From a virus: a stretch of DNA of 38,618 bases. The notes beneath the pieces are model-generated. The model did no database searches. It saw only the letters and a program-made list of their open reading frames with translations, and was not told where the DNA came from. Every line of letters starts with the position of its first letter. Position 1 is the stretch's first letter. The translations under genes were made by a program, and so were the position numbers. This document shows positions 13,392 to 30,372 of this stretch, one piece after another. The stretch covers positions 1-38,618 of IMG/VR virus record IMGVR_UViG_3300025137_000004, one strand, 5' to 3'.

Positions 13392-14284
13392 TATAAAATA
13401 AAATCCTGTAATGGTGGTGGAATAATATCTGGTTTTGCTTCTCTCGCATTTCTTGTTTCAATAAATTCTTTTTCTATTTTTTCTCCTACACCATAGTGAC
13501 CACTACCAATTTGTAATTGACCATCTAACATTAAAAAATGTGCTAGCGAATAATGTATACACGCAGGTATAAGTTGTTCAGGTAAATCAACACCATCTGT
13601 TACTGCATTTTTAGGCATTGGGTTTGAATAATAATATACTTTTAATTCACTACCTGTATCTGGAGTTTTTGTTAGTGTAAGTTTTATACCTTTTAATGTC
13701 CATGTTCCACCACTAGAATAAGCTGTTGAATAAGCAAGACCTTTTACTGGTATAGAAAATGTATTTGCACTTACTACTGTAATTTTATGAACCACATCAT
13801 TAACTTCACTTTTTGCACCTGTTCCAGATAGTAGACCAACAACACCAGATATTTTTACTTTATCTCCTGTTTCAAGTCCATGGGAACTGCTTGTAACTAC
13901 GATTGGATTAGCACTAGTAGCTGCTGTAATAGTGCCTGTGCTAGCATCTTCTTCACTTATAAAATATCCAATATTTTGAATTGCAGCCTCATTAATTCCT
14001 TCAGCATATCTTTTTTCACTTACAAAAGGAATTATTTTGCTATCATTATTACCAATCATGCTAACTTTATAAATTCTCATGCTAGCATCTTCGTTACTAA
14101 GTGTATATGTATTTGTTATTGAAGTTGAAAAAGATTGTGAATTTCTTTTTCTTACAGTTCTTGCACCAACTTCTTGTACTTTATTATCAAAAAATTGTGA
14201 TAACAAAGGCTCTGTTACTGGAAAACCTAATGCTGATTTAACTAAACCAGCCTCAACCATTTCATATGCTTCTTGATATCTCAC
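13391..14284 (-). CDS. Head-tail adaptor-like protein with inserted beta domain, 297 residues
   Basis: The start is GTG at 14284, whose G is also the last base of the upstream TAG stop (TAGTG). The helical N-terminus (RYQEAYEMVEAGLVKSALGF) and C-terminus (LIPACIHYSLAHFLMLDGQ) fit gp4/gp6-type adaptor proteins that bind below the portal. Residues about 120-200 form an inserted beta domain with SSSHGLETGDKVKISGVVG and a following NTFSIP. This is a small module common in phage structural proteins (HGL.TGD.V.I.GV). It lies next to a small basic protein after the capsid gene, as expected for an adaptor. Confidence 0.65.
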   Translation of the reverse strand: MRYQEAYEMVEAGLVKSALGFPVTEPLLSQFFDNKVQEVGARTVRKRNSQSFSTSITNTYTLSNEDASMRIYKVSMIGNNDSKIIPFVSEKRYAEGINEAAIQNIGYFISEEDASTGTITAATSANPIVVTSSSHGLETGDKVKISGVVGLLSGTGAKSEVNDVVHKITVVSANTFSIPVKGLAYSTAYSSGGTWTLKGIKLTLTKTPDTGSELKVYYYSNPMPKNAVTDGVDLPEQLIPACIHYSLAHFLMLDGQLQIGSGHYGVGEKIEKEFIETRNAREAKPDIIPPPLQDFIL

Positions 14285-14622
14285 TATGCTTTCCTTCTTC
14301 TAATTCCTTTAACATGCTTTTGTGACATTGGTGGTCTTTTTGTACTTCCACCTTTTCCAGACCAAAAAACTTTATTTGCCCAAAATGCAGCTGAAGATTT
14401 TCCTTTAGCAATATTTTTACCATGTCGAGCTTTAAAACTTTTTCTAGCTTCTGGGCTATAATTATGCCCCATACCTTGTGCGCCAAAACGAATTATTTTA
14501 ACCTTACCATTTACCCTGACACCAACCACAGCTTTTTTAGTTTTGTGATTAGGTGTCTTTTTAGGGGTATTTAATTTAGTTAAACCTGCCCGTTTAAGTC
14601 TTGATTTTTCTGCTGGTGTCAT
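14284..14622 (-). CDS. Small basic protein (112 residues) after the capsid gene
   Basis: This is a very basic protein with MTPAEKSRLKRAGLTKLN at the N-terminus. A central KVKIIRFGAQGMGHNYSPEA segment is followed by RKSFKARHGKNIAKGKSSAAFW. The pattern SPEARKSFKARH...FWA..V.W is widespread in small phage proteins of marine origin. Its function is unknown, and nucleic-acid binding is plausible from the charge. It follows the strong hairpin after the capsid gene, so its level may differ from the capsid level. Confidence 0.65.
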   Translation of the reverse strand: MTPAEKSRLKRAGLTKLNTPKKTPNHKTKKAVVGVRVNGKVKIIRFGAQGMGHNYSPEARKSFKARHGKNIAKGKSSAAFWANKVFWSGKGGSTKRPPMSQKHVKGIRRRKA

Positions 14623-14630
14623 ATCTTATA

Positions 14631-14659
14631 ATTACGGGGGGCATAAAGCCCCCCATAAT
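14631..14659 (-). terminator. GC-rich hairpin downstream of the capsid gene
   Basis: On the minus strand, ATTATGGGGGGC pairs with GCCCCCCGTAAT across a five-base loop. This gives 12 bp with one wobble pair, by far the strongest hairpin in an AT-rich late operon. No T run follows, so it may attenuate transcription or protect or process the mRNA rather than stop it fully. The position matches the terminator after the capsid gene of T7-like phages. Confidence 0.75.
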
Positions 14660-14664
14660 CCTAT

Positions 14665-16107
14665 TTAAACAAGCTTCATGATTGCATGAGTTTGTTCCTG
14701 ACGAATCTCAGGACCTAGCTCAACTAACCATTCATCTGTTTGACCGTCACTACCATCTTGCACGATGTCTCTGCGAAGCTGGAAATCAGATTCAGCTAAG
14801 ACACGAGCGTCAAAGTTAGCAAAGTCAACTGCAACAGCATAGTCTTCATAAGCACCTCTTAACATTGGGTGAGGAACAAAATTTAATGTTCCAACAGGAC
14901 CCATGTAAGACATAACTCGTAAACCAGCTTTTTCTTCTTCGCCCATCATAGCATTCATATTGCTTGAAGTATCAGCACGAACCATTGCTGTCATTTTTAA
15001 TAGCCATTTGTTAGATGCAAAAACAGTTTTTTCCATTGAACCATCCATAGTATCTTGGAAAATATGTTCTATAACAGCATCAAACTGTGCTTGCGTACCA
15101 CTACTATTATTAAACTGCAATGAAGAATCAATATCTGCATTATTAGTTTGAACAACACCAGCGCTTCCACCAACACCTAAACCTGCAAAGGTTCTTTGTG
15201 GATTGGCAGAGCTTGAATCTAGACTTTTAGCACCATTAAAAAGCATAGCGTATTCAACGTTAGCTTTTATTTGTGCTAGCTTTCTAGCTTGCAATCTTGC
15301 TAGTTCTGGACCACCATACTGCTCAGAAACTCTAGCAGTACGAGTGATTGTATAAGGTTCACGGAAGATTTGAGTACAATTACTCAATCTACGAACCTTT
15401 TTACGAGTTTCAGAACCAACAGCTGCACCTTCAGCGTAAGTACCATTGCCACCAGCAACTTTAAATTCATTATCATCAAGGAAAGCTGTTTCAGCTTGAA
15501 ATAAACCTTGTGATGCGTAATTTGCTGTTGTGCCATATTGACCAGCAGTAGCAACGTAAGTTAATGTAAGAATACCAGATGCGTCAGTAGTAATCATATC
15601 AGCGCCATCTGCTACTTGCTCTACCTGATAAACAGTAGAGTCACCAGATTTAATGTGCAATCCAATAAACTGTACATCTCTATCAGTAGGTGTAGTTTTA
15701 TTAACACCTTTACCAATAGCTACACATAAAAAATGTGTAATTGGTGAATGTATAGCAGATGAACCACCAGCCCTAGATGCAGCATAAATTGCTCCAACTT
15801 CAAACATTTCCATTTGAGCTTGTCTGCGAAATGTTACAACTGAGTTATCGCCATTAATTCCAGCAGTTGCTGTGTCAGAAACATCTGAACTAGTTATAGG
15901 AGTTTTAACACTCCTCTTTATAAAGTACTCGTCTTCCATCCATTCGTAAATCGGCACGGGTGTTTGAACAGCCCCAGCACGACCTGAAATAGATAGCAAA
16001 GGTGTTACGGATTCATTGTAATAATAAATCTTTGGACCTAATTCGAGTACTTGTCTTTGTGTTCCGTCAGAAAACTGCGTTGCAGTTCCTGCTCCATAAG
16101 TAGACAT
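14665..16107 (-). CDS. Major capsid protein
   Basis: This 480-residue protein comes right after the scaffold gene and before the adaptor genes. The N-terminal arm (NESVTPLLSISGRAG, then PIYEWMEDEYF), the central E-loop-like region and the P-domain stretch (RTARVSEQYGGPELARLQARKLAQIKANVEYAMLFNG) fit HK97-fold coat proteins of marine phages. The C-terminal part (DFANFDARVLAESDFQLRRD, then GPEIRQEQTHAIMKLV) matches the usual A-domain end. Codons include more G and C than most neighbours, as expected for a highly expressed gene. No protease gene is seen, so the capsid probably matures without a dedicated cleavage enzyme. Confidence 0.85.
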   Translation of the reverse strand: MSTYGAGTATQFSDGTQRQVLELGPKIYYYNESVTPLLSISGRAGAVQTPVPIYEWMEDEYFIKRSVKTPITSSDVSDTATAGINGDNSVVTFRRQAQMEMFEVGAIYAASRAGGSSAIHSPITHFLCVAIGKGVNKTTPTDRDVQFIGLHIKSGDSTVYQVEQVADGADMITTDASGILTLTYVATAGQYGTTANYASQGLFQAETAFLDDNEFKVAGGNGTYAEGAAVGSETRKKVRRLSNCTQIFREPYTITRTARVSEQYGGPELARLQARKLAQIKANVEYAMLFNGAKSLDSSSANPQRTFAGLGVGGSAGVVQTNNADIDSSLQFNNSSGTQAQFDAVIEHIFQDTMDGSMEKTVFASNKWLLKMTAMVRADTSSNMNAMMGEEEKAGLRVMSYMGPVGTLNFVPHPMLRGAYEDYAVAVDFANFDARVLAESDFQLRRDIVQDGSDGQTDEWLVELGPEIRQEQTHAIMKLV

Positions 16108-22783: not shown

Positions 22784-22803
22784 ATAGTCTAACTATCCTT
22801 AAG

Positions 22804-22839
22804 AAAAACCCTACGATTAAGTTCGTGGGGTTTTTTTTT
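22804..22839 (+). terminator. Rho-independent terminator after the first early gene
   Basis: AAAAACCCTACGA pairs with TCGTGGGGTTTTT (13 bp, one wobble) around a six-base loop, followed by further T residues. It is a textbook intrinsic terminator and isolates the 92-residue acidic gene as a separate unit. Confidence 0.9.
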
Positions 22840-23049
22840 GCTCAAAATGTACGTTTATAGCCTTTTTTTATCTTAAGTAGGGTCGATATACACTCCGAGC
22901 TAGAAAACCCCATAAAACCCCCAAAGCAAGCGTTAAAACAATACACAAGCAACCAAGCCTAACCCCATAACCCCAAAAACTATAATAAAACCTCAAAACG
23001 TACCTAAAAAAGCCGAACTAGAACGCATAAGATAAAAGCCTTGTCTTTA

Positions 23050-23096
23050 GTTTTGGCTATGGTTTTGGCTATGGTTTTGGTATCGGTTTTGGTTCG
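23050..23096. repeat. Tandem GTTTTGG 12-mers (candidate iterons)
   Basis: Four adjacent units are seen: GTTTTGGCTATG twice, GTTTTGGTATCG and GTTTTGGTTCG. The first three are 12 bases and the last is 11. They have no coding role and lie downstream of a C/A-rich stretch. Tandem 11-12-base repeats in a non-coding region resemble iterons bound by a replication initiator. The DUF1376-type protein at 31621-32511 is a possible partner. Confidence 0.6.
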
Positions 23097-23165
23097 AACC
23101 TATTTTATTTCTTTTATTACCTTTTAATTGTTTTATTTGTAGGATATATCATTATACCACATTTT

Positions 23166-23204
23166 TAAGGTTTATATTAAGTAGGAACGTAGTGACTACT
23201 TAAT
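23166..23204 (+). promoter_or_regulatory. Regulatory motif and inverted repeat before the early operon
   Basis: TAAGGTTTATA (23166-23176) repeats the operator word seen at 22111-22121. It runs into a perfect nine-base inverted repeat, ATTAAGTAG (23176-23184) and CTACTTAAT (23196-23204), with an 11-base loop. The next gene starts 25 bases later. It could act as an operator or as an mRNA leader hairpin. Confidence 0.55.
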
Positions 23205-23228
23205 TAAACCATATAAAAATGAGGAAAT

Positions 23229-23507
23229 ATGATAACCTACGAAAACAAAACGATAAAAGATGAACTTGGAGAGCCGACCACCTTTACCTCGGTGAAGTTG
23301 ACAGGTGAAGAGGCTTTCGCTTTATCCCCTTACAATAAATTTAAAAGCAAGAAGAAGGCTAACAGTTTCGTCTCTAGCGTCAATAGAAGAATGAAGCAGA
23401 GAGGAAAGCTTTACTATATAGGTTCAGCTATGATTGAAAAAGCTAGCAGAGAAAACGAAGCTAATTTAAGCGACAAGCTAAAAGATAAATTTAACGGAGG
23501 TATTTAA
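23229..23507 (+). CDS. Early protein of unknown function, 92 residues
   Basis: This is a basic protein with ITYENKTIKDELGEP and a helical, lysine-rich region (FKSKKKANSFVSSVNRRMKQRGKLY). The ATG has a GAGGAAAT ribosome site. No family is recognised; the charge suggests nucleic-acid binding. It opens the early operon after the regulatory inverted repeat and abuts the next gene without a gap. Confidence 0.65.
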   Translation: MITYENKTIKDELGEPTTFTSVKLTGEEAFALSPYNKFKSKKKANSFVSSVNRRMKQRGKLYYIGSAMIEKASRENEANLSDKLKDKFNGGI

Positions 23508-25544: not shown

Positions 25545-26399
25545 GTGGACAGAAAGTACGAAACATTACAATTTGAATCACTCAAACACATGCAATCTGA
25601 AATAAAGCGTAATGGATGGGAGCATAGCAAAACTGAGCAAAGATTCAATCATGAATGGACATATGGAAGTCATTTTGATAATTATGATACTCATATGCTA
25701 GCACTTAACCAAGGGCGTACTTCACCAAGTCTTATACGACACTATAAGAAAATTAGAAATATGCTAGAACGTAAATTAAAAGTATCAAAATATGCAGGTA
25801 AAGGCTTGTCATGTAAACGTAAACGTAGATATACAGATGATGGGGATGAAATAGATATTGACAGATTTCTAGCAAATTCTGACACACCTTGGGTAATAAC
25901 TAAGCGTAAAAGCAAGTCGAGAAACATAAAAATAGCAATTAATTTTGGATTATCTTGTGGCAATAATGAGCAGAGCTTTGCTAAGATTGTAAGTGCAGGA
26001 GCGTTCTTAAGTGATTTGCTTACTAAAATGGGTTACTCTGTAGAGGTATGGGGAGTCGATGCAAGTGGTTACAGAGGAAGCTTGGACTTAGATGAAGTAT
26101 GTACAGCGATAAAAATAAAAGATAGTGGGCAGAAATTAGATATACAGCGTGTACTTAGCATAGGATTGACAGGATTATTTAGAAATTTAGTATTTGGAAT
26201 TCTTGAAAAAAGATGGAAATCAGATTCTTCGCTTGGAACGCAAGTACAGATGTGTAATGAAATACGGAAAGAGCTTGGTTTTAACTATGTTATAGAACAA
26301 GAAATTGTAACCGATGAAAAGAAAACTTTAGATTACTTCGAAAAAGCAATATCAGACCTAGTAGAGAAAAGGGATGGTAAAACATGGGATTGGTTATAA
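25545..26399 (+). CDS. VWA-like (CobT/ViaA-type) partner of the AAA ATPase
   Basis: This 284-residue protein starts at GTG (25545), one base after the ATPase stop, with GGAGG five bases upstream. The N-terminal half is helical and basic. GDEIDIDRFL (100-109) matches the GDELD.D.. segment before the VWA domain of CobT-type proteins. The VWA core is RNIKIAINFGLSCGNN (126-141), then FAKIVSAGAFLSDLLTKMGYSVEVWGVD. The metal-site motif DxSxS is degenerate here (N-F-G-L-S, residues 133-137), so metal binding is doubtful. The pair resembles RavA-ViaA or MoxR-VWA systems used for complex remodelling. The degenerate site, as in some CobT relatives, would fit a substrate adaptor. Confidence 0.75.
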   Translation: MDRKYETLQFESLKHMQSEIKRNGWEHSKTEQRFNHEWTYGSHFDNYDTHMLALNQGRTSPSLIRHYKKIRNMLERKLKVSKYAGKGLSCKRKRRYTDDGDEIDIDRFLANSDTPWVITKRKSKSRNIKIAINFGLSCGNNEQSFAKIVSAGAFLSDLLTKMGYSVEVWGVDASGYRGSLDLDEVCTAIKIKDSGQKLDIQRVLSIGLTGLFRNLVFGILEKRWKSDSSLGTQVQMCNEIRKELGFNYVIEQEIVTDEKKTLDYFEKAISDLVEKRDGKTWDWL

Positions 26400-26441
26400 T
26401 ATAATTACATTTTGATATGAAATGAAAAATGAATTATATTA
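26397..26441 (+). promoter_or_regulatory. AT-rich inverted repeat after the VWA gene
   Basis: TAATATAATT and AATTATATTA form a perfect ten-base inverted repeat with a 25-base loop. It starts in the VWA stop codon region. It is AT-only, so it is weak as a terminator; an operator or partial mRNA hairpin is possible. Confidence 0.4.
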
Positions 26442-26475
26442 AAACACAATACCCAAAAGTAGATTAGGAGCTACC

Positions 26476-28222: not shown

Positions 28223-28236
28223 TATTTAAAGAGGAT

Positions 28237-28265
28237 GAGGGTGCTAGCAAAAAACTAACACCCTC
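28237..28265 (+). terminator. Hairpin at the end of the first early operon
   Basis: GAGGGTG pairs with CACCCTC. After one mismatch, TAG pairs with CTA around a seven-base loop. The ascending arm contains GCTAGC. No U run follows, so it is a pause or mRNA-end hairpin rather than a classical intrinsic terminator. It lies 15 bases after the stop of the 188-residue gene. Confidence 0.5.
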
Positions 28266-28299
28266 TAGTTCGACATTGAGAAAGGAGAGGATGTGAACT

Positions 28300-28329
28300 T
28301 TGACAGATATTAGAATTTATATCCATAAT
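28300..28329 (+). promoter_or_regulatory. Sigma-70-like promoter of the second early operon
   Basis: A perfect TTGACA (28300-28305) is followed after 18 bases by CATAAT (28324-28329). This is the best promoter match in the window and lies between two gene blocks in a 194-base gap. The next gene starts at 28417, so the leader is about 80 bases. Confidence 0.7.
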
Positions 28330-28336
28330 TAACAAG

Positions 28337-28379
28337 TATGCAAAGTATTAATTACAAAAAAACAAATATTTCTTGCATA
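28337..28379 (+). promoter_or_regulatory. Inverted repeat TATGCAA/TTGCATA in the second operon leader
   Basis: Two perfect seven-base arms (28337-28343 and 28373-28379) flank an AT-rich 29-base stretch just downstream of the promoter. A second TATAAT (28378-28383) overlaps the right arm. The arrangement suggests an operator or a second start site. Confidence 0.45.
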
Positions 28380-28416
28380 TAATACAATACTTTAATAAAT
28401 TAAAAGGTAATACGTT

Positions 28417-28674
28417 ATGAAACGCAATACTAAACTATGTGAATTAGAAAACTTTCAAGAGTTTTTTATTCCAAGCATAAACACAAAAGGAATTCTTATT
28501 TCTAACGGACTTGGCAGTTCTAAAGTTATTTATAAAAATGTAAAGCTCACAGATAAAATGGGCGAACGTACATCTGTTAGAGATGTAACTCAACACATAT
28601 CACCTGAAACTGAGGTAATAACAAATGGAAACATTAACAGTAAACTTCAAAAAAGATTCAGTCGGAAAAATTAA
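28417..28674 (+). CDS. Early protein, 85 residues, unknown function
   Basis: This is the first gene after the promoter at 28300. The product begins MKRNTKLCELENFQEFFIPS. It has a beta-rich middle (KGILISNGLGSSKVIYKNVK) and a basic end. An AAAAGGTAATACGTT leader precedes it. It overlaps the next gene by 50 bases. No family is recognised. Confidence 0.55.
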   Translation: MKRNTKLCELENFQEFFIPSINTKGILISNGLGSSKVIYKNVKLTDKMGERTSVRDVTQHISPETEVITNGNINSKLQKRFSRKN

Positions 28675-28852
28675 TAAAATAAAGATAATATCATATCTTG
28701 AAAGAAAAGGAATTCCTTTTAAGTTTAAATCTGAAAAAGAAAAACCTATTCCAAAAAAAATATGTGATAAATGTGGCAGTTTGCTTTACGAAAACCCTGA
28801 TTGTGATGAATGTATTCGCAATGTTGTAGGGGAAGTTTATTACGGAGAATAA
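28625..28852 (+). CDS. Zinc-ribbon protein, 75 residues
   Basis: The C-terminal half holds CDKCGSLLYENPDCDEC, two Cys-x-x-Cys pairs that form a small zinc ribbon. The N-terminal half is basic (NFKKDSVGKINKIKIISYLE). It is translated from an ATG inside the previous gene with a GAGG ribosome site about ten bases upstream. Nucleic-acid or protein binding is likely. It is the last gene before the structured RNA at 28861. Confidence 0.65.
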   Translation: METLTVNFKKDSVGKINKIKIISYLERKGIPFKFKSEKEKPIPKKICDKCGSLLYENPDCDECIRNVVGEVYYGE

Positions 28853-28860
28853 TTAACATT

Positions 28861-28938
28861 AGGCGCAAGTTATTTTAGTTTATTGGTTACTAAAATCGCA
28901 AGGTTTTTATTGTTTCCTTGTTGTCTCTCCTTGCGCCT
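28861..28938 (+). ncRNA. Candidate structured RNA closed by a nine-base stem, with an alternative fold
   Basis: AGGCGCAAG (28861-28869) pairs perfectly with CTTGCGCCT (28930-28938). Inside are two hairpins: ATTTTAG/CTAAAAT (28872-28878 with 28890-28896) and CAAGG/CCTTG (28899-28903 with 28916-28920). This gives a three-way junction. The 3' arm can instead pair as CCTTGCG (28929-28935) with CGCAAGG (28897-28903), and TTTATTTTT follows. That alternative stem would resemble a terminator, so a switch or attenuator is possible. It lies in a gene-free 117-base gap before the ribbon-helix-helix gene. It matches no RNA family I know. Confidence 0.55.
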
Positions 28939-28969
28939 TTATTTTTAAACAGTAAAAAAAGGAGAAAAG

Positions 28970-29188
28970 ATGAGTAAAAAAGAAGATAAATGGGCGAAGA
29001 ATAATAAATTAGTTGCTGTATATATAAATGAAAGTATGCATTATCGTTTAGATATGTTAGCAAGAAAAGAATCGAGGTCATTAAGTTCGCAAGTAAAACA
29101 CATGATGCTTTATTATTTTGAAAATGAAACAGAATGGAGTTCCAAAGGAAGTCTTACTATTAATAATGGTAATATTACTTTAGATTAA
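28970..29188 (+). CDS. Ribbon-helix-helix (Arc/CopG-like) DNA-binding protein, 72 residues
   Basis: Residues about 12-45 (KLVAVYINESMHYRLDMLAR, then KESRSLSSQVKHMMLYYF) fit a beta strand, helix, turn and helix as in Arc, MetJ or CopG-type regulators. Such proteins bind as dimers to repeated short half-sites. The TAAACCT half-sites in the control region are a natural candidate target, but this pairing is inference. The gene is preceded by the structured RNA and an AAAGGAGAAAAG ribosome site, so its own synthesis may be regulated at the RNA level. Confidence 0.75.
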   Translation: MSKKEDKWAKNNKLVAVYINESMHYRLDMLARKESRSLSSQVKHMMLYYFENETEWSSKGSLTINNGNITLD

Positions 29189-29214: not shown

Positions 29215-29892
29215 ATGCCTGTAGATATACATGGAAAACAATATGCAACTGTTAACGAAAGAATAACAGAACTTCACAATGATTACAAGGGAAGTTGTTC
29301 TATTATAACAGAAATTGCAGAATCAGATAGTGGAACAGTAAGAGTAAAAGCAACGTTAACGCTTGTTGAAATGAGCGAAGGATTGGTTAGTCACAGCAAT
29401 ACCTACACAGGACATGCTGAAGAGATTATCGGTTCTAGCTTAATAAACAAAACTAGCGCACTTGAAAACGCAGAAACGAGTGCAGTTGGTAGAGCGCTTG
29501 CATTTGCAGGTTTTTCAACAGATGCTAGCATAGCTTCGGCAGATGAAGTTGCTAACGCTATAATAAATCAAAACAGTACCCCTTCCACGACACAAAAAGC
29601 ACAAGATGAACAGGTTGATAATACTGATTACGATAATCTTGATTGGAAAGTTGAAAGAGAAAACGCTCTAACCTTTGGTAAGAATAAAGGTACAGCTTGG
29701 AAAGACATAGAGGATGGTTACTTAGCTTGGCTAGCAGGCAAAAAAGATAGTAAAAACGCTCGCTTTGCTGACTTAGAGCAAAACTACAGGATTGTAATGC
29801 AACCTACAAGCAAGCAAGAAGATAAAAAACCTGAACCAAAAAAGATAGAAAATGTTTTAGAAGAGCATATTCAGGATTTATTCGATGAATAA
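29215..29892 (+). CDS. Single-strand-annealing-like recombination protein with C-terminal GK-type domain
   Basis: Residues 1-120 have the signature VKATLTLVE, YTGHAEEIIG, INKTSALENAETSAVGRALA and FAGF...SIASADEV. It is common in phage proteins placed beside recombination genes and resembles the core of ERF/Rad52-like annealing proteins. Residues about 150-190 (LTFGKNKGTAWKDIEDGYLAWL) match the FGK.KG...YL.WL module found in DNA-processing proteins. This would be a DNA-binding annealing protein with an accessory domain. The family assignment is by pattern only. It overlaps the next gene by eight bases. Confidence 0.6.
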   Translation: MPVDIHGKQYATVNERITELHNDYKGSCSIITEIAESDSGTVRVKATLTLVEMSEGLVSHSNTYTGHAEEIIGSSLINKTSALENAETSAVGRALAFAGFSTDASIASADEVANAIINQNSTPSTTQKAQDEQVDNTDYDNLDWKVERENALTFGKNKGTAWKDIEDGYLAWLAGKKDSKNARFADLEQNYRIVMQPTSKQEDKKPEPKKIENVLEEHIQDLFDE

Positions 29893-30238: not shown

Positions 30239-30242
30239 AACA

Positions 30243-30353
30243 ATTAGGGGTGATTGCTTTTAATTAACTAATTGGTTAGAGTTTTTGAGGAGTCGAGGCT
30301 ATAATTGATTGGTAATTTGAAAAGTGAAAAGTGTTGGCGCACTCACCCCTAAT
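30243..30353 (+). ncRNA. Candidate structured RNA closed by an eleven-base stem
   Basis: ATTAGGGGTGA (30243-30253) pairs perfectly with TCACCCCTAAT (30343-30353), enclosing about 90 bases with no gene. Smaller possible hairpins inside are CTAA-TTGG-TTAG and GTG-TTGGCG-CAC. An acceptor-like GGGGTGA/TCACCCC end and a TTGGTTAG stretch recall a tRNA, but the length, the lack of a T-arm and the absence of an anticodon arm rule that out. The design (long closing stem, inner hairpins, then a ribosome site) repeats that of 28861-28938. The RNA could be a regulator, a processed sRNA or an mRNA leader of the 69-residue gene. Confidence 0.55.
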
Positions 30354-30372
30354 AATTTAAAAAGGAATAACA

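Follow-up and report, generated by a model that had tools for sequence, protein, structure and literature searches.

The early RNase III sites of phage T7 lie in gaps between genes. RNase III acts on the messages of phages lambda, T7 and T3; its sites in E. coli show no striking sequence pattern, duplex structure was left open as the main cue, and a 22-nt duplex was taken as the minimum target (PMC5371410). The autoregulatory translational operators of T4 genes 32 and 43 have a conserved bound sequence that overlaps or adjoins the ribosome-binding site (PMC3014915). The locus studied here, the gap at positions 28853-28969 of a viral genome, shares with the RNase III sites an imperfect duplex in a phage message and a recognition that would depend more on shape than on sequence. 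It differs from them in that the stem of the genome studied is short (9 bp) and is branched in this lineage. With the T4 operators it has in common an RNA structure upstream of a start codon in early replication/recombination genes, but its arms have no sequence in common, and about 19-33 nt separate the end of the structure from the start codon. Attenuators and riboswitches are also structured RNAs upstream of a gene; in contrast to them, the locus has neither a conserved core nor an Rfam match, and no alternative stem that is stable or conserved. The element in this gap (element 1) is real, conserved and of a familiar kind; the specific regulation originally predicted for it, a switch of two mutually exclusive stems in front of a ribbon-helix-helix (RHH) gene, is not supported.

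The window is the whole stretch of viral DNA that was analysed (38,618 nt; IMG/VR record IMGVR_UViG_3300025137_000004). Its first 99 bases are the same as its last 99, which suggests that the record is circular or terminally redundant. The plus strand carries the early genes, whose domain matches include an AAA ATPase, a PDDEXK/RusA-like nuclease and a replication initiation protein, among others; the structural genes are on the minus strand. From 24329 onward, the majority of the plus-strand early genes overlap or abut. Element 1 had been placed in a 117-base gap of a genome said to leave hardly any other space unused; the gap was confirmed, and the economy of the genome only in part, since gaps of about 76-445 nt also occur at 22784, 24247, 26400, 28223 and 30239. 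No nucleotide match to the region was found among the phage records of the collection, the 188-aa protein had no match among close cultured phages, and the identity of the terminase with those of cultured phages was below 60%. No relative of the gene upstream of the gap was found among the bacterial genomes of the collection, so these give no prophage or host link. A search for tRNA and tmRNA genes gave none.

The features of the gap and its neighbours are as follows (labels such as L001 denote other viral records).

28625-28852, plus strand: upstream gene, 75 aa, zinc-ribbon-like CxxC...CxxC (open reading frame), kept in all six related records
28861-28869, plus strand: 5' arm of the closing stem, AGGCGCAAG (fold); replaced in L003 and L122 by arms that match their partners but are unrelated to this one
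28872-28896, plus strand: hairpin 1, 8 bp, AT-rich, arms 28872-28879 and 28889-28896 (fold); only in the window and L001
28898-28921, plus strand: hairpin 2, the apical hairpin of the common form, arms 28898-28903 and 28916-28921, loop UUUUUAUUGUUU (fold)
28926-28932, plus strand: TCTCCTT, complement of the Shine-Dalgarno sequence of the next gene, a possible but weakly supported sequestering strand (ensemble pairing about 0.5)
28930-28938, plus strand: 3' arm of the closing stem, CTTGCGCCT (fold); G-C to G-U change in L002
28939-28946, plus strand: T-rich tail TTATTTTT (sequence); common only to the window, L001 and L002
28959-28965, plus strand: Shine-Dalgarno sequence AAGGAGA of the next gene (sequence)
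28970-29188, plus strand: probable RHH gene, 72 aa (weak RHH matches in Pfam, PHROGs and PDB sequences)

The upstream gene gave only weak matches in Pfam, all below the cut-off, and in the window 8 nt separate its stop codon from the closing stem. The product of 28970-29188 is a probable RHH protein, whose structural model consists of two helices at low confidence (pLDDT 57); the gene is present in the window, L001, L002 and L122 and absent in L003 and L004. The gene at 29215-29892, which we take to be ERF-like, matched only PHROGs without function, and in L003 and L004 it is the next gene after the structured gap.

A nine-base perfect stem closing two hairpins had been predicted at 28861-28938, and it was found there: the perfect 9-bp closing stem encloses hairpins 1 and 2, and the minimum free energy of this stretch was -23.4 kcal/mol compared with -11.05 +/- 2.46 for shuffled sequences (z -5.0; none of 200 shuffles was as good). 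Since the boundaries of the stretch were picked to fit the structure, this z value is inflated, and the fold of the whole 117-nt gap was more weakly distinguished from shuffled controls (z -1.8; 49 of 1000 shuffles as good). The 90-nt segment beginning at 28861 ranked fourth of 1285 in a genome scan with one strand each. A closing helix of at least 9 pairs occurred in about 5-12% of AT-rich shuffled gaps, and its count is uninformative. The evidence for a structure from the window genome alone is therefore moderate, and the relatives decide. When the window and its gaps were compared with Rfam 15, no family reached the gathering score, and below it there were only chance-level matches. The pattern AGGCGCAAG-N40-70-CTTGCGCCT matched 26 viral stretches; all except L093, which is the L001 contig, lie in GC-richer contigs and have unrelated interiors, so there is no sign of a dispersed or mobile element.

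Searches with the ERF-like, RHH, 188-aa, 75-aa, 117-aa and nuclease proteins yielded six related records (L001, L002, L003, L004, L119 and L122). The gap of L001 is identical to that of the window and that of L002 is 77% identical; L003, L004 and L119 form one clade and L122 a separate lineage. All six have a gap of about 106-117 nt directly after the 75-aa zinc-ribbon-like gene, and in all six it folds with a closing stem that begins about 0-8 nt past the upstream stop codon. The whole-gap z values were -3.1, -3.5 and -3.4 for L002, L003 and L122, with 6, 3 and 4 shuffles per 1000 as good. The stem is AGGCGCAAG/CTTGCGCCT in the window (9 bp) and the same with one G-U in L002, TTTATGGCAAGC(GTTATT)/(AATAAT)GTTTGCCATAAA in L003 (18 bp) and TTTGTAGCGTATTAATA/TGTTAGTGCGCTACAGA in L122 (17 bp), with 17-19 bp over L003, L004 and L122; the clades of the window, L003 and L122 have stems of unrelated sequence. 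Because alignment with MAFFT was unreliable across clades, folds of each lineage and an arm-swap test were used. In this test, the own arms of the three clades gave 9, 12 and 17 pairs, and swapped arms gave runs of 5-6.

Within the window clade, one pair of the apical hairpin is altered on both sides between the window and L002 (C-G to U-A), two further changes in this hairpin are one-sided, and the closing stem has one G-C to G-U change. These two sequences alone do not beat the shuffle control of the tool, so the weight lies on the comparison between clades, and the comparative case covers only four lineages. In global alignment, the gaps of different clades retain little similarity (z about 3), and they look like diverged homologues under structural constraint. 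Covariation among relatives had been proposed as a check, and the stems of the structure are indeed kept by compensating changes between lineages. Since the stem is rebuilt from different letters in related viruses, it may be concluded that the gap carries a conserved RNA structure whose shape is under selection. In its common form, a closing stem of 9-19 bp leads through an internal loop to one apical hairpin; the 5' side of the loop is usually the heavier one, as in L002 and L122 but not L003. The three-way junction predicted originally is present in the window and L001; hairpin 1 is deleted in L002, so the junction is a local elaboration. Nor did the tie to the RHH gene hold: L003 and L004 keep the structure, lack that gene and have the ERF-like gene next. 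No counterpart of element 1 was seen at the 24 other ERF-like loci examined, where the upstream gaps are mostly very short and the few long ones may hide unlisted genes.

The plus-strand RNA was much more stable than the minus-strand RNA in L003, L004 and L122, since 5-6 G-U pairs occur in its fold; in the window and L002 both strands of element 1 were nearly equal in stability. For a second structured gap (element 2, see below), the plus-strand RNA was likewise much more stable in all five sequences compared, through its G-U pairs. The G-U usage and the strand energies place the structure on the sense RNA and point to selection on this RNA rather than on DNA.

Several runs of overlapping or abutting early genes are bordered by structured gaps (26400, 28223, 28853 and 30239). 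Element 1 is read as intercistronic mRNA punctuation, that is, RNA processing, 3'-end protection or translational insulation; we give this explanation about an even chance. What the comparison establishes is a conserved structure, on the sense strand, at a module border. As in intercistronic stem-loops, there is a paired structure between co-directional genes that compensating changes have kept, and its assignment to the sense strand is based on L003, L004 and L122, the window and L002 being nearly symmetric. The position does not depend on the identity of the next gene (RHH or ERF-like), and the gap has no listed plus-strand promoter-like site. On this reading, the gap carries a selected stem-loop of an early polycistronic mRNA, presumably with both modules transcribed as one message. 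Lying right behind the stop codon of the zinc-ribbon-like gene and taking up most of the distance to the next ribosome-binding site, the stem-loop would mark the boundary between two gene modules, most likely in a post-transcriptional role. The duplex could be cut or bound by a host endonuclease of the RNase III kind and/or could block exonucleases and scanning ribosomes, and the two modules would thereby be given separate mRNA lifetimes and translation rates.

The exact mechanism is a matter of conjecture, and any choice among processing, stabilisation and insulation would be provisional; 3'-end protection and insulation of the start are equally compatible with the data. An RNase III site calls for a duplex of about two helical turns; L003, L004 and L122 have 17-19 bp and an apical hairpin, and the window has 9 bp and short hairpins. 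Since its duplex is below the 22-nt minimum, the window is a less likely target of RNase III cleavage than the 18-bp stem of L003 or the 17-bp stem of L122, which would fit an RNase III-type substrate better. Comparative support exists for few RNA elements of uncultured viruses. In element 1, one gene border retains its structure even though the sequence of the stem is fully replaced between clades and the next gene differs too. If intercistronic mRNA punctuation is the true explanation, gap structure could predict the expression modules of viruses known only from metagenomes.

The alternative that survives best, although it is doubtful, is a partial intrinsic terminator in the window, L001 and L002, in which the closing stem and the U-rich tail would stop some polymerases after the zinc-ribbon-like gene and tune down the RHH-ERF module. 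Like an intrinsic terminator, element 1 has in the window and L002 a GC-rich stem base followed directly by TTATTTTT, and another early gap holds a terminator in L003. However, its arms are about 60 nt apart, so the closing stem is not listed by a simple terminator pattern (loop 3-8); a short-loop stem with a conserved U-run was not found in element 1, which the terminator scan does not list. The U-run is absent in L003, L004 and L122 although the stem is kept, and the stretch from the stem to the next gene has no listed plus-strand promoter-like site at which transcription could restart.

It is unlikely that element 1 is a translational switch, in which TCTCCTT (28926-28932), freed by opening of the inner closing stem, would pair with the Shine-Dalgarno sequence at 28959-28965 and shut the next gene, and closure of the stem would open it. 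The complementarity of TCTCCTT and AAGGAGA is perfect over 7 nt, the pairing probability is about 0.5 in a 250-nt context, and in L003 and L004 a CTCCTTT is complementary to their own Shine-Dalgarno sequence. Nevertheless, this strand does not occupy homologous positions in the fold, a pyrimidine run will match any Shine-Dalgarno sequence, and, compared with shuffled elements, the complementarity gave p values of 0.12 (window), 0.11 (L002), 0.026 (L003), 0.07 (L004) and 0.71 (L122). Owing to these weak values across lineages, the switch was kept only as a rival.

A processed small RNA acting in trans is very unlikely: an intergenic fold that is compact and about 80 nt long would suit it, but there is no promoter-like site directly upstream and no conserved sequence for a target, and the U-tail occurs in one clade only. 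Highly improbable is an inverted repeat acting at the DNA level, as an operator of the RHH protein or a cruciform. Perfect inverted 9-mers do stand ahead of the gene of a probable RHH DNA-binding protein, but the G-U rich helices of the relatives favour sense RNA, the structure persists in L003 and L004 without the RHH gene, and the arms have no common sequence between clades; an RHH operator was rejected as unlikely on the G-U usage and the absence of the RHH gene in L003.

The attenuator or riboswitch with two mutually exclusive stems is almost certainly wrong: both pairings can be written in the window, where CGCAAGG (28897-28903) is able to pair with CCTTGCG (28929-28935) of the 3' arm and the T-rich sequence claimed to follow this arm is present, but the best fold with the competing stem (-12.9 kcal/mol) is 10.6 kcal/mol weaker than the main fold (-23.5 kcal/mol), the pairing is broken in L002 (TATAAGG at the site of CGCAAGG) and absent in L003 and L122, the T-rich sequence is limited to the window, L001 and L002, and Rfam gave no match. 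Of the original prediction, what stands is a structured RNA under selection.

Element 2 lies in the gap after the 117-aa gene and was located as follows.

30243-30353 of the window (gap 30239-30372), plus strand: element 2 (fold)
4046-4157 of L001, 4041-4152 of L002, 4108-4208 of L003, 2763-2863 of L004 and about 2850-2917 of L122: element 2 in relatives

Its whole-gap z values were -4.3 to -6.5 in four sequences. In the closing stem, TTAGGG/CCCTAA is kept outside and paired changes occur inside, where the variants of the inner stem are GGUGA/UCACC, GGCGA/UCGCC and GGUAAGAG/CUCUUACC. The long arm bears a GAGGAGU loop common to all but L122; the short arm has UUGGCG or GUGGCG, and its stem changes from GUG/CAC to GAG/CUC between the window and L002. 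Element 2 had no Rfam match. A covariance model built from three sequences matched only the window and L002 among 81 loci; it missed L003 and L004, which carry the structure, because the sequences were too few. Element 2 is stronger and better conserved than element 1 and is the more interesting lead. It looks like an undescribed phage RNA motif, and its conserved loops and the lack of an Rfam match make it a concrete candidate for a new one. It is distinctly unlikely that elements 1 and 2 belong to one undescribed RNA control system of this uncultured-virus lineage, in which structured inter-module RNAs, one with conserved loops (GAGGAGU and UGGC), would set the expression of the recombination/replication modules via a dedicated protein, mutual pairing or pairing with the anti-Shine-Dalgarno sequence of the ribosome.

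Other gaps and hairpins were also noted. At 28223-28416 (plus strand), a hairpin GAGGGTGCTAGC..CTAACACCCTC (GAGGGTG...CACCCTC) is followed by a promoter-like TTGACA-18-CATAAT (28300-28329), and this gap probably holds a terminator and then an early promoter; in L003 and L004, the corresponding position ahead of the 85-aa homologue has a terminator-like hairpin GGGGGTGCTAGCGAAAGCACCCCC with a T-run. A weaker hairpin at 26381-26452 (plus strand; gap 26400-26475) includes the stop codon of the DUF7192 gene, and similar ones occur at the same place in two related records (L117, 2371-2425; L143, 1802-1866). In the 445-nt gap at 22784-23228 (plus strand), a hairpin resembling an intrinsic terminator (AAAAACCC..GGGTTTTTTTT, about 22804-22840) occurs together with repeats of GGTTTTGG(CTAT) and C-rich repeats of ACCCC. 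Another strong hairpin precedes the gene at 23229, and the gap could be a replication origin or control region. On the minus strand, the 480-aa gene (14665-16107) and the 112-aa gene (14284-14622) have a strong hairpin GGGGGGC...GCCCCCC between them, at 14610-14670. Viruses of this kind may commonly have structured gaps; in two viral contigs reached via the nuclease gene, L133 (5358-5502) and L132 (1265-1424), long closing stems and strong folds were found, with z values of -5.0 and -3.2, respectively.
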